Shown one piece after another: positions 1 to 15,786 of a stretch of 20,829 bases of DNA. The position numbers and the translations under genes were made by a program. The first letter of the stretch is position 1. Each line of letters begins with the position of its first letter. The stretch comes from a virus, in the IMG/VR virus record IMGVR_UViG_3300017613_001047, positions 1 through 20,829 of that record; one strand, given 5' to 3'. Under the pieces are notes generated by a model. The model was given only the letters and a program-made list of their open reading frames with translations, did no database searches and was not told the origin of the DNA.

Positions 1-1266
1 CAGTATGTCATCTGCGGCACTCTCATCTAAAGAGAAGTTTACCTCATTGGCGGAGTTAGTAGTCTTGAAGTGAACAGTAGGGTCAGCAGCACTACCTGTT
101 CGGATACTCAATTCACCATCAACGAATGAGGATATGGTATTTACTATGCCACTTTGTATTTCATCAGCAGCTACTACATCATCAAAGTGACTTCCTATTG
201 TATCCCCTGTATCAGCAAAGAAAGAATAATCTTTAGTCCCAAACTTCTCTATAATTATATCGTTGTGAGCAGAAGATAGAGTTGACGTATTCCCATTTGA
301 ATCAAGATAATAGGCATACCCATTACCTGCTGGTGTACCACCACCTGAAGCCTTCCCATGAATATGATTACCTGTGATATGAAAATCTATTGCTGCCTCG
401 CCTATCAGGTTGAATATCTTTAGAGTACCAGCATAATCGGCATTTTCCATATCCGCTTCTATTCTGTTGTTACGGATAGATTTTTCTCCCGTATCAGTAG
501 AAGTTATATGAAATACATTTACAAGGTCATCGACATCATCTATATCCACCACAATCTCGGTATCAACAATGCTATAAGCAAGTGTACCAGCTAAATCTAT
601 GATAGGATGTGTAGCTGCCCCTGCGTTAGTACCACCGAAGTTATAGATAAGTTTACTTCTGAGTATTCTCAATGTACCACCATCATCATCTATTAAAGAA
701 CCTACATCGCCATTGTCTGTATTGATTAGTTGTAGAGTACATTCTCTGATGGCGTGTTGTCCAGTAGAGCTAGGAGAAGTTATTAAATCAAGTCCTGAAG
801 TAGTTGTAGTTTCCGCAACCTTTAAGTTTTCTATTCCTGCATTATCTCCTGCATCAGAAGCAAAAGTAACAGTACCGTCTATGATGACATTACTACGCTT
901 ACCCACGCCTTGGAGAGATACAAAATCTTCCATAGTAATATTTTCGGTATATGTACCCGGATAAATTAAGATCACATATCTCTTGCCAGTAGCATTGTCT
1001 GTAATATCATCTATCGCAGCTTGAATAGTGGCAAAATCACCATCAGCCTTTGCTACGACTACTGCTTGCTGTGGAACAGCACCTCCACCGCTTACAGTCA
1101 TAGTTCCTGTTATTCCTGATTGGGTACACTCCACACCCGCACCCGTACAGTCGAGCTTGAAGAACACACCTTTATCAACACCTTCATCTAAGATCCTTGT
1201 CGGTGGTAAGGCAGCGTAAGACGATGAAACCATTAAAAAGAAAATAAATAAGAGTTTATACCACAT
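1..1266 (-). CDS. Tailspike-like right-handed beta-helix protein, secreted-type N-terminus (3' part outside window)
   Basis: The frame is open without a stop from the ATG at 1266 to the left edge, giving 422 codons of a longer protein. Residues 1-18 (MWYKLLFIFFLMVSSSYA) form a typical Sec signal peptide with an SYA-A cleavage site. A short linker with two cysteines follows (LDCTGAGVEC). From about residue 72 the pattern DGDFATIQAAIDDI, then IYPGTYTENITM, then LQGVGKRSNVIIDG is characteristic of pectin-lyase/pectinesterase-type beta-helices; later turns repeat in the same style (IRNNRIEAD, FHITGNHIHG). Phage tailspikes of this fold bind or cut surface polysaccharide, so receptor recognition or depolymerase activity is inferred. 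No catalytic residues can be assigned, and the C-terminal trimerisation region is not in the window. The start overlaps the preceding gene by 11 bases. A host-type secreted pectinase is an alternative, but the operon position argues for a spike. Confidence 0.85.
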   Translation of the reverse strand, partial: MWYKLLFIFFLMVSSSYAALPPTRILDEGVDKGVFFKLDCTGAGVECTQSGITGTMTVSGGGAVPQQAVVVAKADGDFATIQAAIDDITDNATGKRYVILIYPGTYTENITMEDFVSLQGVGKRSNVIIDGTVTFASDAGDNAGIENLKVAETTTTSGLDLITSPSSTGQHAIRECTLQLINTDNGDVGSLIDDDGGTLRILRSKLIYNFGGTNAGAATHPIIDLAGTLAYSIVDTEIVVDIDDVDDLVNVFHITSTDTGEKSIRNNRIEADMENADYAGTLKIFNLIGEAAIDFHITGNHIHGKASGGGTPAGNGYAYYLDSNGNTSTLSSAHNDIIIEKFGTKDYSFFADTGDTIGSHFDDVVAADEIQSGIVNTISSFVDGELSIRTGSAADPTVHFKTTNSANEVNFSLDESAADDIL

Positions 1267-1579
1267 AGCAGTATTGTACCCCATCGTTCGAATTAGCTGC
1301 ATCCACATATACTTTATTAACGTTATCTATCGGGAACCAATCCGTACTTCTTGCTTGCTCTAATACCATCCCCCTTGCGGAACTTACCGTACTCCCCCCT
1401 ATAAACACGTTACCTGTATTACCCGCTTTTGCGAAAATATTGATTAACCTGCAAGGCGTGTCTGTAGTGGTTAATTGTTCTGCTGTTCCCGCACTAGTCA
1501 CGTCTTTTGACCCGTCTCCAATCGTGTCAGGAGGAGTTATATTGACGGGTGTTTCTCCTCTTTTTTTATCTAGGCTCAT
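1256..1579 (-). CDS. Small phage structural protein upstream of tailspike
   Basis: This 107-residue protein has no signal peptide. From residue 28 it shows a pattern often seen in short phage proteins beside tail or head-completion genes: a TSAGTAEQL start, a strand with TPCRLINIFAK, a GNVFIGGSTVSS turn, a GMVLEQARS strand and a final acidic VYVDAANSNDGVQYCYV strand. This looks like one small beta-sandwich. A structural role at the spike or tail end is inferred from the family pattern and from its place between the ejection-type gene (4-base ATGA overlap) and the tailspike (11-base overlap). The overlaps suggest translational coupling. The exact virion position is unknown. Confidence 0.7.
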   Translation of the reverse strand: MSLDKKRGETPVNITPPDTIGDGSKDVTSAGTAEQLTTTDTPCRLINIFAKAGNTGNVFIGGSTVSSARGMVLEQARSTDWFPIDNVNKVYVDAANSNDGVQYCYVV

Positions 1580-4116
1580 CTTACCTCACCAATTTCTTTT
1601 GCAACTTCTTTAATGGTTTGCTCTATACGTTTTAATTCCTGTTTCCTATCATAAACTTTTGCCCAATATGCACCGCGTTTTAAATCGCTAATCTTTCTTT
1701 TAATTCTTTTAACTGCTCTGACTTTTAAATCGTTTAAATTCATCTTGTAAACAGACGATAAAGATTGTGCAAAGGCCTGCTCCCCCACAGTGAGTTTTTC
1801 TTTTCTGACCTGTTTTTTAACGAGTTTATTTAATTCATTTAACATCCTTGCTTGTGGCAATACAGTGGTAAGGGTGTATTTTAATTTAACAGGGATATCC
1901 ATTCGTAAAAGTTCTTGAGTTTGATTATCGTATCGTTGTATCTCGCTTTCAAAATAGAAACTTTTATTCATTCTTAACTCAATGGGTGCACGTAAATAAG
2001 GGGTTATAAGTTCAAGAAACATCTCCTGTGGGCGAACCATTTTAGCCAAATCACCTGCGGGGAGAAGGCCTTCTAACGGTATATACGTCACAGTATCTAT
2101 ATCGCGTTGTAGTTCTATTGGTAATCGTTCATATAGTTGCGGAGAAGAATACTTGAGACGTAATAAATCTTTTGGGTCTCTCTGACGTAACGGTATGCCT
2201 AGTGGTGCGAACTTCTGGGGTTTCTCCCAAATCTGTTGTAGTTGTAAAGGTACGTTCTTGCGTGTCCATGTGTAGAAGGGCATTAATCGTTTAACGACTT
2301 GTTTTTCAAAAGCTGTTAAATCCGTGTAATCAAAAAGGAATTTCTTTACAGACTGTGCTGCACCGAGAATATCATCCCCCTTGTCTAGCCTATCTAGGAA
2401 ATGTGCCAATCTTGCATTGTTTTCTATTGTCGTTCCAAAAGCCATCCCCCGACCAATTAATCCCTTGCTACCCTTAAGGGCTTGCTCTACGGCTGTCTCT
2501 ACGTCAGCAGCATACCATCCCTGTCCAAGAACACCAGTTTGTTCTGCCCATCGAATAAAATCATCGGCTTGCTGAGGAGAAATTCCAATTTTATCCAATT
2601 CAGCTATTGCATACTTCCCCATCTTCCCGCCCTTGTTCCCGTACTTTCGGTACATTTGTAAGGCTTGTGCCCTAGGATATTGGGAAAGCTGAACACCCGC
2701 CAAGTGATTATTCCAAAGGTTCCCAACCATATTTCTAAGGTGGTATTTGGGGAAAGGCGCAAGTGTCCACTTCTTCCAAGCATTTTGAACAAAATCATAT
2801 CCCTTTAAGAATACACCCGTTTCTTTTGGGTTAAAATATTGGGCAGTTGTCCTTCCTATTTCCTCTGCTATCTCAGGGTCAAACTTTAACCCTCTTAACC
2901 TAGGATTTAACCGAGTAATAGCATTAGGTAATTCCTCCCAATAGCTTGGCGCTTGTCTTTGTCCAAATTGCCGACCCACATCATCTAAGAACTGTGCGGA
3001 AGTAATCGCTTTTGCAGACCGACTCCCTCTAATATAGAGCGCTGCAGCTGGTTTCTTAAGAAAGAATTGCTCAACAGACCTCCCACCAAGACTTTTTAAT
3101 CCATGTGAAGCCACAAAATCATTAAACTCTGCAAGGGTAAAATCCATAGTCTTACGTTGAAGAGCATTTGCTAACCGTGGATTCCATACCTTTGCATTTC
3201 CAACTCTTGCTTGTTTTAAGTATTTTTTCGCTTCTTGCACCGTAATGCGTGGAAAGTATTCAATACCACGATTCCCTTTTGCCAAATGGGTTATTGGTAC
3301 ACCCGCCTTCATTTCCTTTGTAAGCATATTGGAAAGGTGACTCTTCATTGTGTTGGCAAGAGCCCGCAATTCACCAGGAGCACTAGATGGCGCAATACCA
3401 GGTTGTTCGATAAGCCCGATAAGTTGTTTCTCAATGTCATCTACAGACTGACCAGATTTCCTTGACACATTTTGTATGATATTACGTACTTTCTTGGCAT
3501 ACAATAATTCCTTACCACGCAAATATTCTCTTTTTGTTAAATGGGTTTCTATGAGGTCATTGAATTTCTTGAACCCACTCTTCGTTACAAACATATTCCT
3601 TAGTGCGGTTGTTACTGGTTGGGCTTTTTCTGTAACAATCCCCAATGCTCTTTCTATGATGGGGATAGACTTCACTCCTTTACCAACAGTCTTAACACCT
3701 TTACCTACCCCCTTAGTAATTGCTTTATATCCAGCACCACCAAACCACATCAAGGGGTCAGATGCCACTTCTGCGGTGAACCCAGCTCCTGGAATACCAT
3801 GGATACCGATACGGCTTAATAACTCATTCGCTGTGAGTCTTTCCTTCCCAGACATACCCTTGCCGCCCGCTTTCAGTATTTCTGTTGGGTCAAAAGGTTT
3901 CGTGGGTTGGTCTATTCCAACACCACCCTTAAAGGTAAGATGGGGTACTTGCTGTTCGAGTTCCGAGAGAGAGGATTTTACTGCGTATCCTGGGCGGGAG
4001 ATAATGTCAATCACTTTCATAAATTTTGACATATCCTTAAAGGAAGCATCCTTGTCTGGAACAAGCCTCGGTTCATCTAAAACAAGTCTTGGGTTATCTG
4101 GAATAAGCCGTGGCAT
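1576..4116 (-). CDS. Large internal virion / DNA-ejection-type protein (846 aa)
   Basis: This is the largest gene of the window. Residues 1-22 hold three copies of a seven-residue PRLxxDx unit. A Gly/Lys-rich amphipathic stretch (about 127-150) is followed by long helical, basic regions. At about 455-464 the motif FPKYHLRNMVGN occurs, and at about 594-621 FLFDYTDLTAFE leads into PFYTWTRKNVPLQL. These two motifs recur in large virion proteins of many phages, often annotated as internal virion, DNA-ejection or large polyvalent proteins. The basic, helix-rich C-terminus fits a protein that leaves the capsid with the DNA. No lysozyme or transglycosylase motif was recognised. The ATG overlaps the upstream stop as TAATG. 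Its place after two Gln/Ala-rich proteins resembles the gp14-gp15-gp16 ejectosome set of T7-type phages, which supports a role by analogy only. Confidence 0.75.
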   Translation of the reverse strand: MPRLIPDNPRLVLDEPRLVPDKDASFKDMSKFMKVIDIISRPGYAVKSSLSELEQQVPHLTFKGGVGIDQPTKPFDPTEILKAGGKGMSGKERLTANELLSRIGIHGIPGAGFTAEVASDPLMWFGGAGYKAITKGVGKGVKTVGKGVKSIPIIERALGIVTEKAQPVTTALRNMFVTKSGFKKFNDLIETHLTKREYLRGKELLYAKKVRNIIQNVSRKSGQSVDDIEKQLIGLIEQPGIAPSSAPGELRALANTMKSHLSNMLTKEMKAGVPITHLAKGNRGIEYFPRITVQEAKKYLKQARVGNAKVWNPRLANALQRKTMDFTLAEFNDFVASHGLKSLGGRSVEQFFLKKPAAALYIRGSRSAKAITSAQFLDDVGRQFGQRQAPSYWEELPNAITRLNPRLRGLKFDPEIAEEIGRTTAQYFNPKETGVFLKGYDFVQNAWKKWTLAPFPKYHLRNMVGNLWNNHLAGVQLSQYPRAQALQMYRKYGNKGGKMGKYAIAELDKIGISPQQADDFIRWAEQTGVLGQGWYAADVETAVEQALKGSKGLIGRGMAFGTTIENNARLAHFLDRLDKGDDILGAAQSVKKFLFDYTDLTAFEKQVVKRLMPFYTWTRKNVPLQLQQIWEKPQKFAPLGIPLRQRDPKDLLRLKYSSPQLYERLPIELQRDIDTVTYIPLEGLLPAGDLAKMVRPQEMFLELITPYLRAPIELRMNKSFYFESEIQRYDNQTQELLRMDIPVKLKYTLTTVLPQARMLNELNKLVKKQVRKEKLTVGEQAFAQSLSSVYKMNLNDLKVRAVKRIKRKISDLKRGAYWAKVYDRKQELKRIEQTIKEVAKEIGEVR
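4051..4113 (-). repeat. Three imperfect 21-base tandem repeats at the 5' end of the ejection-type gene
   Basis: Immediately after the ATG, three in-frame 21-base units encode PRLIPDN, PRLVLDE and PRLVPDK. The units differ mostly at third positions (CCA/CCG, CGG/AGA/AGG), so the peptide pattern is better kept than the DNA. Confidence 0.75.
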
Positions 4117-4937
4117 TAGTCCTCAATTCTATACTTTTTACCATCAACCATTACTTTCCAAACACCATCTTCTTGAAAAGCATCGGGCCATTGCTTGTAG
4201 GGTGATTTTCCTTTTGCGGTATCAATGTTCTTGTCTACATACTCCCCGTGTTTGATGGCATATACTTCTTCAGCCAGTGCAGATAATTGTTGTGGTGTTA
4301 ATTCTTTATCTACAACACCCATTTTGGAAAGCTGTATGGCTATTGAGTATGAATCATCCCGCTTTTCTTTCTCTTCTTTCTCTTCCTTTTCTGTCTTTTT
4401 CTCTGCTCTTTCTACCCGTTTTTCTCCCAATTCCTGTGCTCCCGTGTACCCACCTGCGTACCCTTGGGATAAACCTGACGCACCTGCTAATACATTCTGG
4501 TTTCCTGTAGTGCTGCCAATAATCGCCGCTAGACCAGGTACACCCGCGCTAAGAAGAAGTTGCATTAAGAAATTGTCTTTATCATCCGTGTCTTTATCAT
4601 CCGAAGTCTTGGGTGTAGAACTAGGTATTACCGATGGAGTCTGTGGTTTCTCTGAGGATTTTTCTGGGGTTTTCTCTGTCTCTGGTGGTTTTAAGAGGTT
4701 CTTCATGAAAGCCTGTATTAATGTAGGTTTTGTTTCGTCAGGGACACCTTCGAGGCTTTTTGCGAAATCCCCCGTTAGGCTCCCTATAGCTTTTGTCTTT
4801 GCTCGGACAGCTTGTTCTTCTTTGGTTTGTGGCTGCCCAATTTGGGGCATAATTTGTTGAGGAGTAACTTGCTGTGCTTGCCCCATATTCTGATACTGTT
4901 GCTGACCTCTATTGATAATATCTTCTAGTAATCCCAT
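4116..4937 (-). CDS. Internal virion-type protein, Gln-rich with coiled coil (273 aa)
   Basis: The protein begins with a Gln-rich helix (MGLLEDIINRGQQQYQNMG), continues with a Pro/Ser/Thr/Lys-rich linker (about 80-115), a short hydrophobic Gly/Ala segment (about 122-165) that could touch or enter a membrane, and a highly charged Lys/Glu coiled coil (about 168-193). The C-terminus (KSPYKQWPDAFQEDGVWKV) may be a small separate fold. No enzyme motif is visible. A good Shine-Dalgarno (AAGGAG) precedes the ATG, and its TAA overlaps the ATG of the 846-residue gene. Being sandwiched between two other ejection-type proteins, it is most likely part of the DNA-ejection apparatus; this is inference from layout and composition. 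Confidence 0.65.
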   Translation of the reverse strand: MGLLEDIINRGQQQYQNMGQAQQVTPQQIMPQIGQPQTKEEQAVRAKTKAIGSLTGDFAKSLEGVPDETKPTLIQAFMKNLLKPPETEKTPEKSSEKPQTPSVIPSSTPKTSDDKDTDDKDNFLMQLLLSAGVPGLAAIIGSTTGNQNVLAGASGLSQGYAGGYTGAQELGEKRVERAEKKTEKEEKEEKEKRDDSYSIAIQLSKMGVVDKELTPQQLSALAEEVYAIKHGEYVDKNIDTAKGKSPYKQWPDAFQEDGVWKVMVDGKKYRIED

Positions 4938-4950
4938 ATTAACTCCTTAC

Positions 4951-5757
4951 TTATGCCCATTTTGTTGCTAGTGCCCCGCCGACTCCCCCAACTGCGGTGC
5001 CTAACCCCTGAAATAGAGAACTGTATAACGCAGATTGTGATTGTTGGTTTGCCATTTGTTGTTGTGCCGCAAGACTCGCTGCTGTATTTGATTGGCTTAC
5101 CGCTCCCGAATACTGTTGGTTAGGGCTTACCACCGGATTAACATATTGGGGTTGGGTGATCTGAGAACCAGGGAAAAGCATCTGTAACGCTGGTAACGCT
5201 GATTGAATCGCGTTTAACCGTGCTATCCTGTCTCTATCGATATCTTGTACCGCAAATTGATTAAGTAAATCACCAACCGCAGTATCTTCTCTCGCCTGCC
5301 GCCTGCCTCCATATAACGTACCCCCTACATTAGCGCTTGTCTGTATGGCGCGTTGTAAATCGCTTACTGACTCTCCTCTTATCGCTTGCTGTGCTTCTTG
5401 TTGTTGTGGGGTAATTCCTTGAGGGCTTATTAACTGCTGTAATATATTGCCTAACATCTGCTCTCTTACACCCTGCTCACCAGGAAAGACTTGCTTACGA
5501 ACATCTTCCTGTAATTGCGTTGTCGCTCCTAATCCGTATTCAGGGTTAGCCAGAATATCGTACTGTACCTTTGCCGCGCCTGGCATGGTATTTATCTGTG
5601 CTTGTAATTGTGCCTGTGCTTGTTTTACAGGGTCAATCTTTTCTGGTGCAGGAGCAGGGCTTGATTTGCCCCCACCACCGCGTTTTGTAAATCGTACATC
5701 CGTACCTTTGTCTAAAGAAAATAAAACTAACCAACACAGAATACTTAAACTAAACAT
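4951..5757 (-). CDS. Ejection-type virion protein with an N-terminal hydrophobic leader (268 aa)
   Basis: Residues 1-15 (MFSLSILCWLVLFSL) are strongly hydrophobic, with no clear signal peptidase site behind them. At about 27-45 comes RGGGGKSSPAPAPEKIDPV, the sort of Gly/Pro/Ala start often seen at the very N-terminus of short phage virion proteins of this kind. The rest is Gln/Ala-rich and helical, with many QQ pairs. The C-terminus (GLGTAVGGVGGALATKWA) is a Gly/Ala-rich amphipathic segment typical of membrane-active internal virion proteins. The chosen ATG has an AGGAGAGG ribosome site inside the end of the GNAT-like gene, so the leader is probably translated; no other good start lies between the leader and the Gly-rich segment. 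Its role as an ejectosome part is inferred. Confidence 0.65.
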   Translation of the reverse strand: MFSLSILCWLVLFSLDKGTDVRFTKRGGGGKSSPAPAPEKIDPVKQAQAQLQAQINTMPGAAKVQYDILANPEYGLGATTQLQEDVRKQVFPGEQGVREQMLGNILQQLISPQGITPQQQEAQQAIRGESVSDLQRAIQTSANVGGTLYGGRRQAREDTAVGDLLNQFAVQDIDRDRIARLNAIQSALPALQMLFPGSQITQPQYVNPVVSPNQQYSGAVSQSNTAASLAAQQQMANQQSQSALYSSLFQGLGTAVGGVGGALATKWA

Positions 5758-6049
5758 CGATACCTCTCCTTGCTAATTTGTTTCTAGGGAAAGGGCCTAC
5801 TAACGCATCTCGTTGGAGATTGTTCCAATAAACCCAATTAACATTTTTCATAAATTCGTGCTTATTCATCTTTGCAATTAATTTTTCTATACAACCCTTT
5901 GCAAACCCGCTTCGAAACTTTGGATGTACCCATAAGTTTTGGATATAAACATACTCTCCATGGTCTTGAAATTGTCCTTCTTTATTAACAACTTCCCACT
6001 CAATGAAACTATAGATGAATCTATGTTTTGTCTGTAAATAAGTTATCAT
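5750..6049 (-). CDS. GNAT-like (N-acetyltransferase fold) small protein
   Basis: This 99-residue protein carries the core of the GNAT fold. Residues 35-52 contain a hydrophobic strand, then NLWVHPKFRSGFAKG, matching motif A of acetyl-CoA-binding N-acetyltransferases (R-x-x-G-x-A/G followed by a helix). Near the C-terminus WVYWNNLQRD and RNKLARRG resemble the terminal strand and the usual ERN-LARR end. It is shorter than typical GNAT enzymes (140-180 residues), so N-terminal elements may be missing or reduced. It overlaps the fibre gene upstream by ATGA and the ejection-type gene downstream by 8 bases. Some T7-type phages carry a small GNAT-like virion protein in a similar place, so it may be structural; modification of a host or phage protein is the alternative. 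Confidence 0.7.
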   Translation of the reverse strand: MITYLQTKHRFIYSFIEWEVVNKEGQFQDHGEYVYIQNLWVHPKFRSGFAKGCIEKLIAKMNKHEFMKNVNWVYWNNLQRDALVGPFPRNKLARRGIDV

Positions 6050-7206
6050 AAGACGTATTGAACTATTACAATTCCAGTACCACCTGCACCACCAGAACCA
6101 GCGTTTGCTCCGCCACTGCCACCACTACCTGTTACTCCTGCACTTCCGCTTGCAGCACCACCGCCGCCATCAGCGCCTGTTGCACCAACACTTAAACTGC
6201 TTCCACCACCGCCACCAAGATATCCAGAACCATCACCGTCCGCACCTGCACCGCCCGCAAAGCCAGGAATACCGCCCCCGACCGTTGCTGTTTTCGTTCC
6301 GCCTGTATTGTATGTTGTCCCGCCTGTACCGCCTGGGCCGTCTGCAACTGAACCTGCAGATTTTCCCGCACTACCGCCGCTTCCACCTTTTACATATAAA
6401 GTATCAAACCTCGTTTCACCCCCAGCAGATCCGTCTAAACCTGCCCCTCCACCTGCACCGCCAGCACCTACCTCTACGGCATATCCTGTCGTGGGAACAA
6501 CTGTATGGGGGGTATCTATGGTATAGGCACCACCACCGCCACCGCCACCGCCGTATTGACCGTTCTCACCACCGCCACCACCTCCACCGCCGCCAGCCAT
6601 CGTTATATATACCCTTGTCACTCCTGCTGGACAAGTCCACGTGTCATTGGAAGTATAAGAGGTTGTACTCAGCATCGCATCAACATATGTTTTTGTTGCT
6701 TTCTCTGTTGGTATGGCAGTATCAGAATCTCCGGCAAGAGTCCCGTCTGTAGAGAACTCTGTGACCGCGTTCGTCATTGTTATAGAAGTAAACGTAGCCA
6801 CTCCCGCAGAAACGCCTCCGATTGTTACATCGTCTATTGTTCCACCGTTAATATCTGCGGTTGTCGCTACTAAATCAGCGAAGGTGGTTTGTGCCGTTAT
6901 CGTTGCTCCTGAAAAATCTAGTGTTCCCGTGAACGTTGTGTTCTGAGAAATAGTTGATAAATCGACTTTAGTCTCATCAATATCTGCGGTTGCGCTTATA
7001 TCTGCATTTAAAATCGTTCCGTCCGCATAAGTATCTACACCCGCGGTTAGGTAGTCGAACACCGCGTCCTCATTTGCCGTAACGTGTGCTGAAAGAATAG
7101 TTGTCCCTGACGTGTAAGTGTAAATCCTCGCCGGGGGGCCTGCAACAGCATCACTAATAAAACAAGGTGGGGATAGTAAGAGAAATAAAATAAGTAATTT
7201 TTTCAT
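6046..7206 (-). CDS. Glycine-rich tail fibre/adhesin with signal peptide (386 aa)
   Basis: The start is placed at the ATG at 7206 (GGGAG ribosome site, TAATG overlap with the upstream stop), not at the upstream in-frame ATG at 7230. Residues 1-22 (MKKLLILFLLLSPPCFISDA plus VA) form a Sec signal peptide with AVA-G cleavage. Residues about 28-90 form a module shared with the neighbouring 162-residue protein (SGTT, YLTAGVD, ILNADISATADI, QNTTFTGTL). A fibre-like region ending SDTAIPTEKATKTYVD follows. From about 195, WTCPAGVTRVYITMAGGG opens a long glycine-rich domain that closes with GGTGIVIVQYVL, the usual ending of Gly-rich phage fibre tips. Such tips stack polyglycine II helices and bind receptors in other phages. 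A receptor-binding fibre is the likely role; the signal peptide is unusual for one. Confidence 0.82.
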   Translation of the reverse strand: MKKLLILFLLLSPPCFISDAVAGPPARIYTYTSGTTILSAHVTANEDAVFDYLTAGVDTYADGTILNADISATADIDETKVDLSTISQNTTFTGTLDFSGATITAQTTFADLVATTADINGGTIDDVTIGGVSAGVATFTSITMTNAVTEFSTDGTLAGDSDTAIPTEKATKTYVDAMLSTTSYTSNDTWTCPAGVTRVYITMAGGGGGGGGGENGQYGGGGGGGGAYTIDTPHTVVPTTGYAVEVGAGGAGGGAGLDGSAGGETRFDTLYVKGGSGGSAGKSAGSVADGPGGTGGTTYNTGGTKTATVGGGIPGFAGGAGADGDGSGYLGGGGGSSLSVGATGADGGGGAASGSAGVTGSGGSGGANAGSGGAGGTGIVIVQYVL

Positions 7207-7694: not shown

Positions 7695-7701
7695 ATTTCC
7701 C

Positions 7702-7980
7702 CTACTTTGTTGTAAATGTATGATTGTTCCCTCTATACTGTATGCGTACATTCGGCCCTGTCTGGATTAACCAGAACTCGCCATCATTAGGGTCTGCCTT
7801 CGATGTGGTGACAAGATCTAACTCTAACCGCCCGTTAATAATGTTTTGTAAATCTATTAAAATCCTGTTGAGTTTCTGGATTTGTTTCTCATCGGATAAA
7901 TCGGTAAACGTGAAGGGTTTCTCCATCCTCGCCCCGCAAAGAACTAGAACTAATAATATAATTAATAATTTATTCCACAT
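7702..7980 (-). CDS. Small secreted-type protein in the fibre cluster (92 aa)
   Basis: Residues 1-17 (MWNKLLIILLVLVLCGA) form a signal peptide. A cysteine lies near its end, but the residue before it is Leu, so this is not a good lipobox. A polar helix follows (about 27-50, with KQIQKLNRILIDLQNIINGR, a likely coiled coil), then a short beta region (NDGEFWLIQTGPNVRIQYRG). A helix followed by a small strand-rich tip resembles short trimeric fibre parts, so it may join or cap the fibres; this is inferred. It starts inside the last codons of the 617-residue gene (11-base overlap) and is followed after 7 bases by the next fibre-type gene. Confidence 0.7.
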   Translation of the reverse strand: MWNKLLIILLVLVLCGARMEKPFTFTDLSDEKQIQKLNRILIDLQNIINGRLELDLVTTSKADPNDGEFWLIQTGPNVRIQYRGNNHTFTTK

Positions 7981-9823
7981 CCATCACGTCCGCTAACATA
8001 TGAAACCCGTATAAATGAAAGTTTTCGTTGATATCCGCGTTCTCAAACTTATACTCTATCATCCGCCCGTACCCGCTAAGTAAAGTCGTATAAAACTTGT
8101 CTCCTGTTGTCCCCCAGACACCGATATCCCATAACGCTGAATCCCATAAACTCGATGTTGATGGACTAAGGTTCTTGGCTTCACTTCCTAGCGTTGACCC
8201 GAAATCTACAGAATAACTTACAATGACTTCATCCCCTGTAGATTCTTCACCCCAAAGGAATAATTTACGGAAGTTTTTAAGTCTTGGGGAATCCCCGAAA
8301 TCGTACCATTTAGTGGTATACGCGGCATCTATCGCACCTATCGAGTAATTACTCGTTGTCGTCGGGGTAGTGGTGAACGCTGTGGCTACGGCAACACCCG
8401 TTGAGGTGTTATACACAATAACCTGTTCTTCTCCCGCCCCTGTCCCTGAGGTTATCTTGAATAAACATCCTGTCAGTTGGGTTGTGCTGAACCCAGGGGT
8501 AGAGTCTTTAATGAACTGTGCTCCTGTTATCGTGCGGGTATTGACCGTGCCTACAGATTCAACTACACCGACATATCCTGTCCCATCACCGCCGTCTGAT
8601 GTATAATCGGGGTTATCTAACCAATACACATGCGCGTCGTAGTTCCCGAAATAGGTTTTTACAACACTGGAATCTTTGATTTGACCAAACGCATTGGCGT
8701 TGATATCAGTATGTTTAGTCCATTCGCCGACCTCTGTCTGAAACTCGTAAATACTGTCGTTCTCCGTTACACCGCTTGTACTGGACGAGAGATAGTAAGA
8801 ATCCCCGTCAAACGTGCTTACGGAATATTGGATTCGTGACGAGTTGAGATTGTCGAGTGTCGGTTGGATAATCCATCCGATATCTGTAATCGTAGCGCCG
8901 TTGAATAAATATACCCTCTTATCTTCGTCAAGAAAAATAATGGCACGGCGGTTATCTTCCAAGAGGATTGTTTGTATCGAATCCCTAGCAATCGAACCGA
9001 TGTTCTCAATGACTTTATTAACGGTAAAGACATCATCCCCTCCTACAAAAGACGCTTTGTAAATCGAGTTTCTTAAGAAAGCGTAAAGGTCGCCGTATAA
9101 CTCGGCAAACCCTACAATTTCATCTCCCGCAAGTGCGCCTATATCGATATAATCCTCATCCGTCCAAGACTGTATCGTACCGACATTCGACCATCGTGCA
9201 CGCGTAGGGTACTCTGTCCCCGCCTCAACGGTATTCCCTAAAACTAAATAGTTTTTATACCATATAACCGTTTTTACTTTAGTTACGGCATCACTTAAAT
9301 CAGATAAATCTAAATCAGAGTATTCAGGGGTAGAATCTATTTTTAACGGTAAATCAGTATCGTTCGTGCAGACAGCGTAATCTAACGCGCTGATACATTG
9401 CCACTGGTTGTTCTTGCCTGTGGTGATACCCGTTACTTTATGCCCTTCAGGTGAATCAGTAACTTCCGTCCATGCTGTCCCTGAATCGTACTTTAATTTC
9501 TTCCCGACAAACGCGTAAATCCGTTCATTGCCGTTAGAATATTCCATATAGAATATCCCGTTAATCGCAGGAGAATCTATATCTAAATCGTCTAGTGTGT
9601 CATCTACCGGGTCGTACCCTCTGCGTTTCTCTAAATCAAAACTGCGGGATAATTTAACGTTTTTTAAATCCGAAGCTCGTCCGTCCTGTAATAACGGTGC
9701 GCTGGTACGTGTATCTAACCCGCGGAATCCCATAATAGTCTGGGGTGGATATCCGATTAACTTAGGGTTTTGTGCGTAACATAAAGTTGTAAACAATAAG
9801 AATACTAAACATTTACGCAACAT
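7970..9823 (-). CDS. Tail nozzle / stabilisation-type protein with signal peptide (617 aa)
   Basis: The N-terminus MLRKCLVFLLFTTLCYAQ is a clear Sec signal peptide with CYA-Q cleavage. After it, from about residue 31, comes the motif MGFRGLDTRTSAPLLQDGRA then DLKNVKLSR and KRRGYDPVDD. This is the usual opening of large beta-rich phage proteins that lie just after the head-tail adaptor (T7 gp12-like nozzle or P22 stabilisation-type proteins). Many beta-propeller-like strands follow (NGIFYMEYSNGNERIYAFVG, KNYLVLGN, FAELYGDLYAFLRNSIYKA), together with an inserted Thr-rich domain (about 420-485). The C-terminus has RLKNFRKLFLWGE and a GYGRMIEYKFEN strand. It overlaps the adaptor gene by 11 bases. 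The family role is inferred from motif and order; the signal peptide is the odd part and would not be expected in a cytoplasmic tail protein. Confidence 0.75.
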   Translation of the reverse strand: MLRKCLVFLLFTTLCYAQNPKLIGYPPQTIMGFRGLDTRTSAPLLQDGRASDLKNVKLSRSFDLEKRRGYDPVDDTLDDLDIDSPAINGIFYMEYSNGNERIYAFVGKKLKYDSGTAWTEVTDSPEGHKVTGITTGKNNQWQCISALDYAVCTNDTDLPLKIDSTPEYSDLDLSDLSDAVTKVKTVIWYKNYLVLGNTVEAGTEYPTRARWSNVGTIQSWTDEDYIDIGALAGDEIVGFAELYGDLYAFLRNSIYKASFVGGDDVFTVNKVIENIGSIARDSIQTILLEDNRRAIIFLDEDKRVYLFNGATITDIGWIIQPTLDNLNSSRIQYSVSTFDGDSYYLSSSTSGVTENDSIYEFQTEVGEWTKHTDINANAFGQIKDSSVVKTYFGNYDAHVYWLDNPDYTSDGGDGTGYVGVVESVGTVNTRTITGAQFIKDSTPGFSTTQLTGCLFKITSGTGAGEEQVIVYNTSTGVAVATAFTTTPTTTSNYSIGAIDAAYTTKWYDFGDSPRLKNFRKLFLWGEESTGDEVIVSYSVDFGSTLGSEAKNLSPSTSSLWDSALWDIGVWGTTGDKFYTTLLSGYGRMIEYKFENADINENFHLYGFHMLADVMDVE

Positions 9824-10793
9824 CGGCTGTTGACCTCCTGATATGAGGAAACTGTCTGAACCTGTGTCTTTCTAGCCTGGGGATAAAATCGCTTACCCCC
9901 CGATCAGCATTAACCATCGCTCTGACACTCGCTGAATATAACGCTTGTGTTGTGGTGAAATCGTTCTCTTTCCCTAAAAACTGGTAGACCTTGGCTAAAG
10001 TACCTAACCTTATAACATAATGCCAGTTCGGGTCGAATTGCGGGACATCGCTATCTCTAACTAATTCCCTCAAATGAGAGTAGTATTGAATGTAAATAGT
10101 CATCGCACTGCCTGGAATAGGGTATAAATCCATGACCTTGTGGATAGGGTTACGCTCTTCCTTTCCTAACGTAGTGAGTGTGGTCGCACCTGCAGTAATC
10201 GTTATCGTCCCCGTGGTGTTCTTGCTCTTGGAAACAAAGATATCTCTTGCATCAAACGTGGTGGAACCTGTAACCGTGGTCGTACCGTTTAACACATAAC
10301 TCTCTGACTGAAGAATACCGTTTACATACCCCCATATTGTTACCGCTAAATCGCTGTCGTTATCGTCGGAAGTAGAACTCGATACCACATCTATCGTGTC
10401 TGCAGTAGAAAGTTTAGTCCCTACACCGGATATTTCCCATAACCTGTAAAGTACAGGGTTCCCCGTATCAGTAGGTTCGGGCTCGTATTTGAGGAATTGT
10501 TCGTCTGTAACACGGTATATCTTGGTTGGGGATTCTCGTTGGGTGACGATAGCAACGTCTTTGATATCCCTCTCTAACACGTATTCTGATGTCGAAGCCG
10601 TGGTGGTAAAAGTAGTCTTGCGTTTTAACCATGACCATCGATGATGGATTTCTTTTCTAAACGCCCAACCTGGGGATTCAACTTCTCTTAAGGTGAGATT
10701 TATGAACTCTTCGACGAGTGACCCTATTTGCGAACTTTCTTGGCGGGTTGTGGAGAGTACGTGATCCTTTATTGCTTTGCGTGTTGACAGCAT
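9813..10793 (-). CDS. Head-tail adaptor (gp11-like tail tubular A type), 326 aa
   Basis: The N-terminus has the helical adaptor pattern: TRKAIKDHVLSTTRQE, then FINLTLREVESPGWAF, as in proteins that join the portal to the tail in short-tailed phages. A middle region (about 133-215) is Ser/Thr/Asp-rich and reads as an inserted beta-sandwich (GYVNGILQSESYVLNGTTTV, GTITITAGATT). The C-terminal third returns to adaptor-type sequence (MDLYPIPGSAMTIYIQYY, HYVIRLGTLAKVYQFLG). No signal peptide is present, in contrast to the next gene. A GAGG ribosome site lies 5 bases before the ATG. The start lies 116 bases inside the end of the O-antigen ligase-like gene. The conserved motif right after the ATG supports this start, so the overlap comes from an extended upstream gene. 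Confidence 0.8.
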   Translation of the reverse strand: MLSTRKAIKDHVLSTTRQESSQIGSLVEEFINLTLREVESPGWAFRKEIHHRWSWLKRKTTFTTTASTSEYVLERDIKDVAIVTQRESPTKIYRVTDEQFLKYEPEPTDTGNPVLYRLWEISGVGTKLSTADTIDVVSSSTSDDNDSDLAVTIWGYVNGILQSESYVLNGTTTVTGSTTFDARDIFVSKSKNTTGTITITAGATTLTTLGKEERNPIHKVMDLYPIPGSAMTIYIQYYSHLRELVRDSDVPQFDPNWHYVIRLGTLAKVYQFLGKENDFTTTQALYSASVRAMVNADRGVSDFIPRLERHRFRQFPHIRRSTADVA

Positions 10794-11931
10794 TTATTTC
10801 CTCATTTCTGATTGCATACACCGAGGCATATGCGAACATAGCGTAAATAGAAGGTAGCCAAAGGTGCGAAGTGTAATTAAAAATACAGCTGATACAAAAA
10901 CCCAACACAATAGCTTTAAGGCATATTGAAGTGTGGTCTGAAACCCTATTTTTAAAAAATGTATATATGACATTGATAATTAAAATTAACCCGATGATTC
11001 CTAGTTCAAGCGCGTAATGGTAATACTCTAAATGTAAATGCCGTAAATCAGGGAATAAGGTTTGCTTATAGATGATGTTTATCCCACCTAACCCTATCCC
11101 TGTTACTGCGTGAGATTTAAATAACGGGTAGTAATACTTCCACCACTGGATTCGCCCATGTGGGTAAAATAAATCTTTGTTTATAAGGGTTAACACGAGT
11201 AGGCTTACTACCGCTAGGGGGAGAGCTATATAGAACGCCTTCCTTCTTTTAAAGTAAAGTAGATAAGCGCCGACACATAAACTAGTAATAATACCTGAAA
11301 CAGCCACATCATTTTTGTGCTCTCCCGTTACGGTCAGTAAAATAAGGCACGTTAAGCCTAATACAAACCAGTTCTCCTTCTTCTTCTTGATGAATAGTAA
11401 CGGTATACACATAGCGAGGAATCCCGCTAGATGCGTTCCGTTCCCGATAAACCCGTTGACAGGGTTGTTCCAGTATTCATGAAATTGGGGGTGGTCTTTT
11501 AATAAGAATATGAAAAATTGGCTTAAACCGAAATATTGTAATACACACACAAATAACGTTGCGATTAACCCCCAACGCATATACTCTAAGATCTTCTCAA
11601 CCTTCTCTTTGTTCAAATATTGAACGATGAGCTTATAGAAGATAAGTAAACAAAGCAGATTGAAATAAGGGAGAAAATGTTGTAAATCATACTTCCCCTT
11701 TACCTGAGCAAGAAAACAGAATACCCCCACACTTAACCCTATCCAGCCGTGTAATAATCCGAGTGGTTTGTTTTTAAGAGTAGGTACCCCTTTATAAAAG
11801 AACGATAACGTGAATAATATAAATATCCCTGTCTGTACCCAAAACCCTTGTGCATGCCAGATATCTAACCCATAAAATATGAACGGTGCTAAATTAGTCC
11901 CTAGTATCGTGAGTACAAATATCCAGAACAT
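10678..11931 (-). CDS. O-antigen ligase/polymerase (WaaL/Wzy-type) membrane protein in phage operon
   Basis: The protein has about 11-12 hydrophobic segments spread over 380 residues. Near residues 259-315 it has the conserved block of the O-antigen ligase/polymerase family: GRIQWWKYYYPLFKS, GIGLGGINI, then HLHLEYYHYALELGIIGL. This matches the R-x(n)-W, G-x-G-x-G and H-x-E-Y-GiiGl pattern of the periplasmic loop that handles lipid-linked sugar repeats. The start is set at ATG 11931 (AAAGGG ribosome site); a TTG at 11943 in frame is weaker. The last 38 or so residues are basic, non-membrane and overlap the adaptor gene, so they may be a recent read-through extension. A phage Wzy changes O-antigen linkage in Pseudomonas phage D3 (known); here serotype conversion or exclusion of rival phages is inferred. 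Its place between head genes is unusual. Confidence 0.85.
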   Translation of the reverse strand: MFWIFVLTILGTNLAPFIFYGLDIWHAQGFWVQTGIFILFTLSFFYKGVPTLKNKPLGLLHGWIGLSVGVFCFLAQVKGKYDLQHFLPYFNLLCLLIFYKLIVQYLNKEKVEKILEYMRWGLIATLFVCVLQYFGLSQFFIFLLKDHPQFHEYWNNPVNGFIGNGTHLAGFLAMCIPLLFIKKKKENWFVLGLTCLILLTVTGEHKNDVAVSGIITSLCVGAYLLYFKRRKAFYIALPLAVVSLLVLTLINKDLFYPHGRIQWWKYYYPLFKSHAVTGIGLGGINIIYKQTLFPDLRHLHLEYYHYALELGIIGLILIINVIYTFFKNRVSDHTSICLKAIVLGFCISCIFNYTSHLWLPSIYAMFAYASVYAIRNEEINAVNTQSNKGSRTLHNPPRKFANRVTRRRVHKSHLKRS

Positions 11932-11943
11932 ATACCCTTTCAA

Positions 11944-11996
11944 AGGGGACAGCGAGGGATGAAAGGATGAAAGAACCCTCGCTTAATTTGTCCCCT
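11944..11996 (-). promoter_or_regulatory. Long RNA hairpin between decoration gene and O-antigen ligase-like gene
   Basis: AGGGGACA (11944-11951) pairs with TGTCCCCT (11989-11996), and the directly adjoining GCGAGGG (11952-11958) pairs with CCCTCGC (11976-11982). A short bulge (11984-11988) interrupts one side; the loop carries CTTTCATC twice in tandem on the minus strand. This gives about 15-16 base pairs. No run of T follows on either strand, so it is not a standard rho-independent terminator. It may be a processing or mRNA-stabilising site at the border between highly and weakly expressed genes, or part of the translation control of the membrane protein. Confidence 0.7.
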
Positions 11997-12001
11997 AACT
12001 C

Positions 12002-12487
12002 TTACTCGCAGTCTATGTTTGCTAGAACAGAACCGCCTGATGCGGTTGCTGTTGCATAACCAAACTGTAATCCCTTGTCAACCCCCGAAGAAGGACAAGA
12101 ACGCGCTGTTCCTGCTGTTCCTGAAGTACAAAGGAACGTTCCAGCTACGATGTCAGAACCGACACCGGAAGAAGGAACTGTAACAGTCGTAACTCCGTCT
12201 GTAACCATAATCCCGTCTGCTCCTACTGCTGCACCGACAAGAACTATACCAGCGACAGGGCCGGTACCAGATGTCGTTGTAACATCGACGTAATTATCGT
12301 TATCTCCTGTAGAGTCGTCCGTATCCCAGATAACAACCATACCCGCAGTCAACGTAGTTGACGAGCTACTGTTATAATAGGATGTTACTTCTCTACAAGG
12401 GCCTGCTGAAGGGTCACAGATTGTACCTGCGTATGCCACTCCTGCAACGAATAGGAGGGCAAATAAAGAAATAAGTAATTTTCTCAT
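12002..12487 (-). CDS. Head decoration (cement)-like protein with signal peptide (161 aa)
   Basis: Residues 1-20 (MRKLLISLFALLFVAGVAYA) are a near-perfect Sec signal peptide with AYA-G cleavage. The mature part is a small beta-rich domain: TLTAGMVVIWDTD, GPVAGIVLVGAAVGADGIM, TVTVPSSGVGSDIVAGTFLC and FGYATATASGGSVLANIDC. The order (storage of a value, G-I-V-L strand, G-x-V-x-V-P strand, GxxL strand, GYA strand) resembles the small capsid cement proteins that commonly follow the capsid gene. Five cysteines (TIC, GPC, FLC, RSC, IDC) would be suited to an oxidising compartment. It lies 9 bases after the capsid gene with an AAGGAGGA ribosome site, so high expression is likely. The decoration role is inferred; a secreted non-virion protein is the alternative. 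Confidence 0.7.
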   Translation of the reverse strand: MRKLLISLFALLFVAGVAYAGTICDPSAGPCREVTSYYNSSSSTTLTAGMVVIWDTDDSTGDNDNYVDVTTTSGTGPVAGIVLVGAAVGADGIMVTDGVTTVTVPSSGVGSDIVAGTFLCTSGTAGTARSCPSSGVDKGLQFGYATATASGGSVLANIDCE

Positions 12488-12496
12488 TGTTCCTCC

Positions 12497-13471
12497 TTAA
12501 GCCGTTGTGTTAGTTTGAACCCCTTGCGTTCTCCTAGACCCTGTGGTTAAATTACCGTACAAAGCCATTAATGCGGATTTCGCAAGTTGGTCATCTTTTT
12601 CTTGGAATTTGAACATTTTCATGTTCCCTTGTGCTAATACCTGCAACCATAAGCTATCAGTATCTACGAAGTACGTATTGCCCGTAGGACAATTATCATC
12701 GAAAAGTACTGGTAACGTTGTGTATTGAAGGTGTCTAAACCCTGCATCTGCAAGGTCTGTTTGAGCATATCGAATATTGCTCGTCAATCCGATCTCATAT
12801 AAACCGTAGATTGTCTTAGTCGTAAATACAGCCCGCGGGCCTCTACGCCCGTAAATTGTATTATTTAAGATATCATTCCACGCTTTTACCCCTGTATCGG
12901 ATGTATTGAAGGCCGTAATTGCCGATGTGTTGGTATAGTTGTGCCAATACGTTAATGCTGTACTAGCGGTACAATCTATCCCACCGACATTACTTTGACC
13001 AGTTGGTGTCTCATGGATTAAAAACTGTAACCCGCCGAAGTCGTTTGAGCCTGTACCATCTCCAAAAGCCTGGTCGCCCATTAACTCGGACATTGAAATC
13101 TCAGCTTCTAACCTTTTAACATCAGCAAGTTCGAGTAATCTTTCTTTATTGCCAGCGTTCATCGCTAAGTCTACATCAGACAAAACAATAGAACCCGCAG
13201 CAACTTTGATATCATACTCTGCTCTTGTGATTGCATCGGTCACGTTAAGACCAATGGTGTCCAACTTAGAATACATCGCAAATGAAGGGTTAGTTTTGTA
13301 GATAATCGGATGAGTGAATTTCCTACCACCACCAACTACTTTGATATTGCCTGCTTGTCTTAACATCCAATATAACGCATTGTTTGTTGAGATAGCATCG
13401 AATATCTCTTTACCATGATTCTGTAAAGTAGTGGTAATTAAGGTAGTAAAACTACTATTACCTACTGCCAT
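12497..13471 (-). CDS. Major capsid protein (324 aa)
   Basis: The protein follows a scaffold-type gene directly and has the length of a phage coat protein. The N-terminal helix (SFTTLITTTLQNHGKEIFDA, then ALYWMLRQAG) is followed by a loop-like VVGGGRKFTHPIIY segment, an acidic helix (KERLLELADVKRLEAEISMS), a Gly/Asp loop (GDQAFGDGTGSNDFGGLQ), and a C-terminal region with LPVLFDDNCPTGNTYFVDTD followed by FKFQEKDDQLAKSALMALYG and NLTTGSRRTQGV. This is the arrangement of HK97-fold coat proteins found in many short-tailed phages (A-domain strand with variable loop, then a closing basic strand). No signal peptide is present. Two cysteines are seen. A good ribosome site (AAGGAG) precedes the ATG. 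The protein would form the head shell in the cytoplasm. Confidence 0.88.
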   Translation of the reverse strand: MAVGNSSFTTLITTTLQNHGKEIFDAISTNNALYWMLRQAGNIKVVGGGRKFTHPIIYKTNPSFAMYSKLDTIGLNVTDAITRAEYDIKVAAGSIVLSDVDLAMNAGNKERLLELADVKRLEAEISMSELMGDQAFGDGTGSNDFGGLQFLIHETPTGQSNVGGIDCTASTALTYWHNYTNTSAITAFNTSDTGVKAWNDILNNTIYGRRGPRAVFTTKTIYGLYEIGLTSNIRYAQTDLADAGFRHLQYTTLPVLFDDNCPTGNTYFVDTDSLWLQVLAQGNMKMFKFQEKDDQLAKSALMALYGNLTTGSRRTQGVQTNTTA

Positions 13472-13482
13472 TTGCTAACTCC

Positions 13483-14196
13483 TTACAAAGTTCCATCCCA
13501 ATCTGTCTCTAACTTTTGCCGTATTTCATCCCTGTAAGACGGTGTCTCTGAGGGGATACTGGTGTCAGAGGGGACTGATGTCCGTTCAAGATTGGCTTGA
13601 ACTTTTTGTTGTGTTTTCTTTGTTGTGCTTACTTTTCCTGTTTTTTTGGCTTCCTCAATCCGTTTAGTCCCCATGACCGCCATAGTGGCTTTGTCAAGAG
13701 ACATACCCAGAGAAACATATTGCGCTATTTCTTTTTCTTCAGGGGAATTAGGTTTAACGTCACTATTCTCTTGACGGAACTGCTTTTCCTGAATACTTGC
13801 AATAGTCCTGCGTAATGCTTCGTTCTCCCGTAAGATGGGAGCAGAAAGTTCCTCACCTACTTTTTGGGCTTCTTTCCGCATCTCACCTTTGAGCTCCCTT
13901 AAGAACTCTCGGGTGGCTGGGTCTTGTGCACCGTACTTTTGGATTAAATCTATCTCTTGTTTCGTCGCGGCTGGTGCATTGGGTTGAGATAGTTTGTCCG
14001 TTAATACTTGCGCCTGCTGTCGCCATTGCTCGGCTTCTTGGGCGGCTTGGTTCTTTTGGTCGATGACCTCTTTGAACCTGTCGTACGGTATGGATTGCTC
14101 TTCCTGAACAGCTTGTTCCTCGGTTGCTTCCGATTGTTCAGTTTCCGTAGTGGACGGGTCTACAGTGTTTTCGTCCTGTATTTCTTCTACCATCAT
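13483..14196 (-). CDS. Head scaffolding protein (237 aa)
   Basis: The protein is strongly acidic at the N-terminus (VEEIQDENTVDPSTTETEQS), then almost wholly helical and charged with Gln/Glu/Lys-rich coiled coils (about 40-165: YDRFKEVIDQKNQAAQEAEQ, LRELKGEMRKEAQKVGEEL). A basic Lys/Thr-rich stretch (KTGKVSTTKKTQQKVQ) and a short helix (YRDEIRQKLETDWDG) end it; basic C-termini bind coat protein in known scaffolds. Position just before the capsid gene is classical. Two ATGs lie in tandem at 14196 and 14193 after AGGAGG; the second has the better spacing, so the real start may be one codon later. No protease motif was recognised. Confidence 0.85.
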   Translation of the reverse strand: MMVEEIQDENTVDPSTTETEQSEATEEQAVQEEQSIPYDRFKEVIDQKNQAAQEAEQWRQQAQVLTDKLSQPNAPAATKQEIDLIQKYGAQDPATREFLRELKGEMRKEAQKVGEELSAPILRENEALRRTIASIQEKQFRQENSDVKPNSPEEKEIAQYVSLGMSLDKATMAVMGTKRIEEAKKTGKVSTTKKTQQKVQANLERTSVPSDTSIPSETPSYRDEIRQKLETDWDGTL

Positions 14197-14241
14197 TCCT
14201 CCTCTTTTTACGTCATAGTGGACGTGGTTAATGGTTGGTAC

Positions 14242-14601
14242 TTACTGCAGAAAAGCAAAGACACTGGAAACATCTACTTCTGCAACCAGGTATCCGCTCA
14301 TTCTGTCCATATCAATAAGGTCTTTCTTTAATTCTAACTTGACTTTCTTTAGGTTCTTAGCGTTTTCCCCGAACTTGAAAAGTAATAAATCCACGCCTAC
14401 ACCCGCCTCGGCACCTGTTCTCTGGTTATCGGTGTTGCTTAGATAGGTGTCTTCATAAGGATGGGTGTGTTCCCTGATAGCGGTTGTTTTATAACTCGTT
14501 CCGGGCTGGTTGTAGATTTGGTTCTTTTGGGTTTCTTTTATTTCTGCAAATGCAGGGGTTGCTAAGAAAACGATTAATACTAGAATAATTAATCTTTTCA
14601 T
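14242..14601 (-). CDS. Secreted-type small protein before the scaffold (119 aa)
   Basis: Residues 1-19 (MKRLIILVLIVFLATPAFA) are a Sec signal peptide with AFA-E cleavage. The mature protein is about 100 residues: a polar region (KETQKNQIYNQPGTSYKTTA) with HTHPYEDTY, then AGVGVDLLLFKFGE, a basic helix (NLKKVKLELKKDLIDMD), and a hydrophobic end (GYLVAEVDVSSVFAFLQ). No known family was recognised. The ribosome site AAAGGAG is good. The 45 bases between it and the scaffold hold only a weak 5-base-pair inverted repeat (ACGTC/GACGT). It may be a virion surface or membrane-bound assembly part like the other leader-bearing products, but this is speculation from context. Confidence 0.72.
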   Translation of the reverse strand: MKRLIILVLIVFLATPAFAEIKETQKNQIYNQPGTSYKTTAIREHTHPYEDTYLSNTDNQRTGAEAGVGVDLLLFKFGENAKNLKKVKLELKKDLIDMDRMSGYLVAEVDVSSVFAFLQ

Positions 14602-15779: not shown

Positions 15780-15786
15780 TATGTTT
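15767..15786 (-). repeat. Direct repeat copy 2 at upstream border of the homing endonuclease gene
   Basis: TATAGAGAGGCATTATGTTT on the plus strand spans the start codon of the endonuclease gene and the stop of the portal gene. It equals copy 1 except for a missing three-base insert. Together the two copies look like a target duplication left by insertion. Confidence 0.85.

Follow-up and report, generated by a model that had tools for sequence, protein, structure and literature searches.

Conserved Sec Leaders on the Outer Virion Proteins of an Uncultured Podovirus-Type Clade and a Possible Two-Compartment Route of Virion Assembly

Introduction

Tailed phages are usually taken to assemble wholly in the cytoplasm. 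Why, then, would a set of genes for outer virion parts begin with Sec-type leader peptides, as an original prediction from sequence alone proposed for the structural operon of virus record IMGVR_UViG_3300017613_001047 (20,829 bases, analyzed in full and referred to here as the window)? That prediction offered either export of the surface parts as a new assembly route, or leaders acting as anchors for assembly at the inner membrane. Our analysis sustains the export half, based on conserved leaders, two virion folds, small residues in register before the mature N-termini of two proteins, and paired cysteines in a third. At a probability of roughly 0.6, we suggest that the window represents a podovirus-type clade with two-compartment virion assembly, in which the outer parts would be exported by Sec, processed, and joined to the head after the inner membrane opens. 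The leaders, their conservation and partition between genes, and a ligase homolog that co-occurs with them are read directly from sequence, and the two virion folds from structure models.

Results

Leader Peptides in the Window

The late operon of the window lies on the minus strand in the order terminase, portal, a scaffold-position gene, capsid, decoration (g10), a Wzy_C membrane protein (g11), adaptor, nozzle (g13), g14, g15, g16, a GNAT-like gene, three ejection-type genes (g18, g19, and g20), a small gene, and spike (Table 1). The terminase, portal, and HK97-type capsid genes (phrog_38, phrog_1216, and phrog_9953) fit Caudoviricetes of the podovirus type, as does the short-tail set, which consists of a SU10_adaptor match above the cut-off and a nozzle fold. 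The 22 listed proteins of the window are matched at 100% by a longer record, IMGVR_UViG_3300017527_000399 (43,560 bases).

Leaders were called by a heuristic Sec/signal peptidase I (SPase-I) rule, which is not SignalP and requires an n-region that is not negative, an uncharged hydrophobic core, and small residues at -3 and -1; it passed 7/7 E. coli signal peptides and rejected 2/2 cytoplasmic proteins. All seven genes to which the original prediction assigned signal peptides are open reading frames (ORFs) at the positions it gave and pass this rule, with n-, h-, and c-regions and small -3/-1 residues of the Sec/SPase-I type, and a longer in-frame start is also present for g15, g16, and the spike gene. 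The genes that it listed as lacking leaders, i.e., the terminase large subunit (TerL), portal, scaffold, capsid, adaptor, g19, and g20, all fail the rule. Two further ORFs of the window pass, the polytopic membrane protein g11 and g18; because the g18 call is not conserved (1/16), its start is probably wrong.

Under the same rule, none of 66 late-region coding sequences (CDS) of four cultured relatives passes. Nine of 119 CDS listed from T7 and P22 do, three of them spanin genes, and among the structural genes of these two phages only T7 gp14 passes (1/21; P22 0/11, T7 1/10). For coding-strand ORFs of at least 80 aa, the rule is passed by 168/439 in 34 leader-clade loci versus 22/345 in 35 leaderless relatives.

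Conservation of the Leaders Among Relatives

IMG/VR was searched with the capsid, the nozzle, and the ligase, which gave relatives that keep the gene order; L046 is the single locus that came from the ligase search alone. The resulting leader clade consists of 38 loci, near-copies included, in which the best start within 60 codons was applied equally to every gene; because a ligase match defines this clade, its counts of leaders and of ligases cannot be treated as independent. Near-identical contigs (L003/L004/L005, L015/L016, and L055/L056) enter the leader counts and partly the ligase counts, and the near-copy fragment L006 enters no count.

Leaders recur on the same genes across diverged members of the clade: on 33/35 decoration ORFs, 32/36 nozzles, 27/27 g14, and 28/28 fibers, and on both spikes (2/2), whose homolog was seen in two records only. 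They are absent from TerL (0/9), portal (0/26), g05 (0/27), scaffold (0/29), capsid (0/32), adaptor (0/36), GNAT (0/17), g19 (0/3), and g20 (0/2). Besides g18, the only isolated call is in g21 (1/6), and the ligase, itself a membrane protein, passes in 30/37 ORFs. A stricter set excluded most near-copies (but retained both L055 and L056), admitted only ORFs with neither end missing, and allowed starts within 90 codons; in it, leaders are found on 30/31 g10 and 22/25 nozzles of the clade. For the small gene at 14601-14242, some leader ORF occupies the same interval in 8/24 contigs.

Six ORFs of the g10 and nozzle families fail the rule. The nozzles of L024 and L060 start with leader-like N-termini that the strict rule missed, and that of L008 has a hydrophobic stretch ending in LAG, without a clear start upstream. 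The frames of the L052 nozzle and of the L030 and L053 g10 extend far upstream of the likely start, and in L030 a leader is found further in. Among leaderless relatives, 4/30 nozzles and 5/13 portals pass, calls that we judge to be spurious, as the near-identical L065-L068 nozzles have a poor leader and the portal calls use starts some 50 codons into the frame; widening the start range to 90 codons adds two further outgroup nozzles, those of L076 and L079. The leaderless set also contains L059, a leader-clade fragment whose g14 and g16 pass. Homologous phages without leaders, which the original prediction had named as evidence against itself, indeed occur, but they belong to separate lineages from which the ligase gene is likewise missing (Mx8, BUCT555, ppBjS10J-1, 45A6, and uncultured outgroups), and thus leave it standing.

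Several further arrangements were seen around the leader genes. L008 has a long additional in-frame stretch between adaptor and nozzle (L008:2809-3199), which holds the hydrophobic leader of the nozzle, and L019 has a tandem pair of decoration genes, each with its own leader (L019:625-1623). Longer contigs carry further leader genes downstream of the spike; in the longer record of the window, the region past the spike (L086:4238-7785) contains more leader ORFs, including one that encodes a lectin-type domain (Laminin_G_3, 7e-17), together with a staphylococcal-nuclease-like protein without a leader. In 11 loci, the decoration gene is separated from the ligase gene by a small lipoprotein-type ORF (lipobox LTGC, LAGC, LSGC, or ISGC), which is often cysteine-rich.

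Virion Folds of Two Leader Proteins

Two of the leader proteins are, by their structure models, true virion parts, namely a capsid decoration protein and a nozzle of the P22 gp10/T7 gp12 type. The model of g10 matches phage decoration proteins and head-fiber bases (6qyy, E 6.7e-5; 8qsy_JJ, Z 13.9, 2.2 Å over 114 residues), and in the best 15 rows the match starts at residue 18-32, i.e., at or after the predicted cleavage at 20. The model of g13 matches podovirus nozzles (9nwi, E 1.4e-24; VP1 nozzle, SU10, T7 gp12, P22 gp10, and Sf6), with phage tail structures in 30/30 of the best 30 rows.

The leaders divide the operon along a functional line: the leaderless genes build, fill, and close the head, and the leader genes encode parts that can be added afterwards. 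The tail parts of P22 join after packaging.

Cleavage of the Leaders and Paired Cysteines

In g14 and g16, the conserved mature N-termini are preceded by small residues at -1/-3 that stay in register. The residue before the mature N-terminus is A or G in 24/24 matched g14 and A, S, or G in 19/19 matched g16, with one sequence unmatched in each family, and in the nozzle, matched by a looser pattern, it is A in 15/21 (one unmatched, and some matches out of register). Across the four main families, every one of the 97 sequences has a net positive n-region, these sequences having been chosen by a rule forbidding a net negative one; both this count and the -1/-3 counts rest on sequences preselected by the leader rule.

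Mature g10 has 2.31 Cys per 100 aa, and an even number in 25/30 sequences, compared with 0.27 in portal, 0.51 in capsid, 0.21 in adaptor, 0 in scaffold, 1.45 in TerL, and 1.92 in GNAT. Cysteine content by itself proves nothing, given that TerL and GNAT are also rich in cysteine and the nozzle is at the level of leaderless nozzles. The pairing is more telling: in g10, five pairs of cysteine columns co-occur (10/10, 9/9, 3/3, 6/7, and 5/6), and four of the five change on shared branches of the tree (4/4, 2/2, 3/4, and 2/3), the 9/9 pair having too few changes to count; a sixth, weaker pair changes together in 2/4. The nozzle has three co-occurring pairs (6/6, 6/7, and 12/14), and for one of them two changes fall on shared branches. 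No pair changing together on the tree was found in portal, capsid, or adaptor (a capsid pair co-occurs in 13/19), and no co-occurring pair in GNAT. Since the cysteines of g10 are gained and lost in pairs, we read them as probable disulfides, which would place the folding of g10 outside the cytoplasm, presumably in the periplasm. Together with the -1/-3 residues in register in g14 and g16, these paired changes favor cleaved leaders over permanent anchors, as judged from the alignments.

A WaaL-Type Ligase Within the Structural Operon

A gene that the original prediction did not mention offers the strongest hint as to why export would take place. The product of g11 (11943-10678) is a homolog of WaaL/Wzy_C proteins, and PF04932 (Wzy_C) matches 32/32 members at E ≤ 0.01, exceeding the curated cut-off in 5/6 and 28/31 records, with the window's own protein below it (20.8 versus 31.7 bits). 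In a PDB comparison, the only match at E ≤ 1 is WaaL (7tpg/7tpj, 2.4e-7). R264, H304, and E313 are invariant in the alignment (32 rows), and R264 and H304 align with the Arg and His of 7tpg, which we take to act in catalysis. NCBIfam subfamily models match weakly and in a mixed fashion (IctB 3/32, PEP_O_lig_1 3/32, and TfpM 1/32), and no PglL-specific model is listed.

The ligase gene is present in 6/6 and 30/31 leader-clade records (36/37), the one miss being L059, a fragment of 4.7 kb whose sequence begins within the nozzle gene. It was found in none of 33 leaderless relatives, including four cultured phages searched whole. These 33 are the 35 leaderless loci less L038 and L080, and the clade search of 31 loci, which followed the first 6, left out L004 and L046. 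Many uncultured leaderless loci are short, and 11 hold full capsid and nozzle genes (L061, L063-L065, L067-L069, L074, L076, L084, and L085). One ligase query and one decoration query had no match in 50,697 phage records. As Glycos_transf_2 and Glycos_transf_1 were found in 0/12 longer records, the glycan would come from the host.

Phylogeny and Host

In the nozzle tree, all bearers of ligase and leaders fall in one clade (89/88), where L059 was assigned manually to the ligase bearers. L050, whose nozzle is 25% identical, is the most distant of the relatives with leaders; it carries the ligase as well, and stands apart on a long branch in the capsid tree. Leaders and ligase would thus have arisen once (nozzle tree) or twice (capsid tree), and then been kept together. 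L050 (JAQTLL010000009.1) is also the single relative found in genome contigs in one scan, as a 37-kb contig binned in a Sulfuricurvum metagenome-assembled genome; the binning of a phage contig is weak host evidence, and we claim no host for the clade. In the 39,748-base record to which L023, L091, and L092 belong, the first 50 bases (in the orientation used) recur about 180 bases before the end, which suggests that the record probably represents a complete genome (about 39.6 kb).

Other Features of the Late Region

The genes considered here are collected in Table 1. The ligase and adaptor genes, which are read in different frames, share 116 bases (10678-10793), an overlap that is shorter or absent in several relatives. 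An HNH-type endonuclease ORF (15396-15779; phrog_5046, 3e-9) starts at the last base of the portal gene and has no match in relatives except in the window's own longer record. The N-terminal domain common to g15 and g16 (6046-7694) is 46.8-49.4% identical between them, as if by gene duplication.

Table 1. Late-region genes of the window, with their leaders, and lipoprotein-type ORFs of relatives.
Feature	Coordinates	Strand	Basis or remark
Small protein with leader (about 19 aa, AFA^E)	14242..14601	-	Homolog only in the window's own longer record
Capsid decoration protein (g10) with leader (about 20 aa, AYA^G)	12002..12487	-	Decoration fold, model pLDDT 85.2; paired cysteines
WaaL/Wzy_C-type polytopic ligase (g11), between decoration and adaptor genes	10678..11943	-	Invariant R264, H304, E313
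SU10-like adaptor, without leader	9813..10793	-	Profile match
Tail nozzle (g13) with leader (about 17 aa, CYA^Q)	7970..9823	-	Nozzle fold, model pLDDT 86.5
Small tail-region protein g14 with leader	7702..7980	-	Leader rule, conservation
Fiber-type protein g15 with leader	7206..7694	-	N-terminal domain in common with g16
Glycine-rich fiber-type protein g16 with leader (AVA^G)	6046..7206	-	Leader rule, conservation
Spike-type protein with leader (SYA^A)	1..1266	-	Truncated by the window edge; full 848 aa seen in the longer record
Major capsid protein, without leader	12497..13471	-	phrog match
Scaffold-position gene, without leader	13483..14196	-	Name from position only
Portal, without leader	15779..17632	-	phrog match
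Terminase large subunit, without leader	18207..19757	-	phrog match
Three ejection-type genes g18, g19, g20	1576..5757	-	Function from position; g18 (5757-4951) passes the leader rule here, not in homologs
Lipoprotein-type ORF of relatives	L003:9242-9505		Same interval in L020, L021, L027, L032, L033, L035, L051, L055, L056, L057

Discussion

A Proposed Route of Assembly

The predicted leaders on the outer parts speak against wholly cytoplasmic assembly. In the route that we propose, terminase, portal, scaffold, capsid, adaptor, and ejection proteins would stay in the cytoplasm, where heads would be made, filled, and closed, and the decoration protein, nozzle, small tail protein, fibers, and spike would be synthesized with cleavable Sec leaders for export. 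Once in the periplasm, these parts would lose the leader and form disulfides, and the phage WaaL-type ligase would probably attach a lipid-linked glycan of the host to at least one of them. Lysis proteins would then open the inner membrane, upon which closed heads would meet the stored parts and the particles would be completed. (A Pfam search of 20 further late proteins found no holin or clear lysis cassette, and one weak Cell Wall Hydrolase match in L009.) We prefer such late mixing to portal-first docking because the decoration protein must coat the whole head. The predicted export of the outer parts is strongly supported, and leader cleavage and oxidative folding, as judged from residue patterns, are supported; late docking after membrane opening we infer. 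In a fuller version of this route, the whole outer layer would be exported by Sec, oxidized in the periplasm, glycosylated there by the phage ligase with lipid-linked glycan of the host, and attached to heads once the membrane has opened, so that the particles would carry host sugar on their surface; we rate this version as less likely than not.

Several observations weigh against two-compartment assembly. The clade has no cultured member and is known from genes alone, and its leaders were called by a heuristic rule. Compared with shuffling, strict A-x-A is in clear excess in g10 only (21 versus 10.6), with 4 versus 2.4 in the nozzle, 4 versus 3.5 in g14, and 2 versus 4.0 in g16, and Shine-Dalgarno-like sites precede only 5/25 g14 starts and 12/22 nozzle starts. 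The cysteine density of the nozzle (0.74 per 100 aa) is no higher than that of leaderless nozzles (0.68), and co-changing cysteine columns also occur in g05 (one pair) and TerL (several, in only 8 sequences). The joint origin of leaders and ligase represents few events rather than many independent gains, and that the ligase glycosylates virion parts, and which of them would be its target, is something that we infer.

Alternative Explanations

Instead of being removed, the leaders might persist as uncleaved or slowly cleaved anchors that hold the tail parts at the inner membrane, where heads would dock portal-first. Hydrophobic N-termini with positive n-regions would anchor just as well, the enrichment of strict A-x-A in g10 only fits such anchors, and T4 provides a precedent for membrane-linked head assembly; we nevertheless consider this unlikely, in view of the registered -1/-3 residues of g14 and g16, the paired cysteines of g10, and the difficulty that a membrane-held decoration protein would have in coating the whole head. 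Similarly, the exported copies might stay out of virions and act in the periplasm or at the cell surface (e.g., in receptor masking or superinfection exclusion), with virion forms starting downstream of the leader. Between codons -4 and +6 relative to the predicted cleavage, some start codon is indeed present in 11/30 g10, 7/22 nozzles, 14/25 g14, and 3/20 g16, but it is ATG in only 4/30, 0/22, 5/25, and 0/20 respectively. With ATG so rare there, a leaderless form is not generally encoded, and the paired cysteines in the decoration fold suggest that the exported form is under selection, which makes this explanation quite improbable to us. Very improbable is that the leaders are an artifact of start choice or of hydrophobic N-termini common in phages: the window g18 passes though its homologs do not, and T7 gp14 passes, but the same genes pass in diverged contigs while their neighbors stand at 0/26 to 0/36 by the same rule. 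Start choice in particular was rejected as a source of the calls, with control genes at zero under the same best-of-starts rule.

For the role of the ligase, the main alternative is one that accepts export and leaves the Wzy_C protein out of it, assigning that protein to the remodeling of the host surface, as a polymerase or ligase of O-antigen, and we regard it as a serious contender, somewhat short of even odds. Wzy_C is generally understood to span ligases, polymerases, and protein O-oligosaccharyltransferases, the NCBIfam matches noted above are weak and mixed, and P22 has O-antigen conversion genes (gtrABC). Against it, the ligase gene has a fixed place inside the structural operon, and is absent from all 33 leaderless relatives examined.

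Comparison With Known Systems and Implications

The window phage resembles P22/Sf6/T7-type podoviruses in its HK97-type head set, adaptor, and nozzle, whose model matches theirs, and differs from P22 and T7 in that their structural genes, T7 gp14 excepted, lack leaders. Mx8, BUCT555, ppBjS10J-1, and Ruegeria 45A6 have a related capsid (25-31% identity), and at least the first three share the order capsid, decoration-position gene, adaptor-position gene, nozzle, and GNAT; unlike the leader clade, these cultured phages have no leaders in their late CDS and no Wzy_C gene in the four whole records. The ligase shares the Wzy_C domain and the catalytic-region Arg and His with WaaL O-antigen ligase and other PF04932 enzymes, but its gene lies inside a phage structural operon. 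Inoviridae likewise have coat proteins with Sec leaders and an assembly that draws on exported protein, whereas the window phage is tailed, with terminase, portal, and icosahedral head, and does not belong to that family. With glycosylated mycobacteriophages, sugar on capsid and tail proteins would be a common outcome; those phages use their own glycosyltransferases, in contrast to the periplasm-facing ligase found here in a clade in which two common glycosyltransferase families gave no match in 12 longer records.

Signal peptides as such have been recorded in phages: Table 3 of one study gives 2, 1, 0, 0, and 0 for five lytic rumen phages (PMC5723332), and another mentions a signal peptide on a phage endolysin (PMC8951688). 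Among the open-access literature matches listed, none describes a set of virion parts with Sec leaders in a tailed phage, or a phage ligase that acts on virions, which is not proof of absence. On that basis the leader arrangement appears to be of a new kind, and its standing depends on the exported parts entering virions.

A leader set that separates head-building from late-added parts makes an alternative to cytoplasmic assembly directly testable, and the combination of leaders on the nozzle and decoration genes with a Wzy_C gene located between the decoration gene and the adaptor gene provides a simple genomic mark for such phages. If the proposed route is true, it would explain how phage surface proteins could acquire disulfides and host-type glycans, with a bearing on particle stability and receptor binding.

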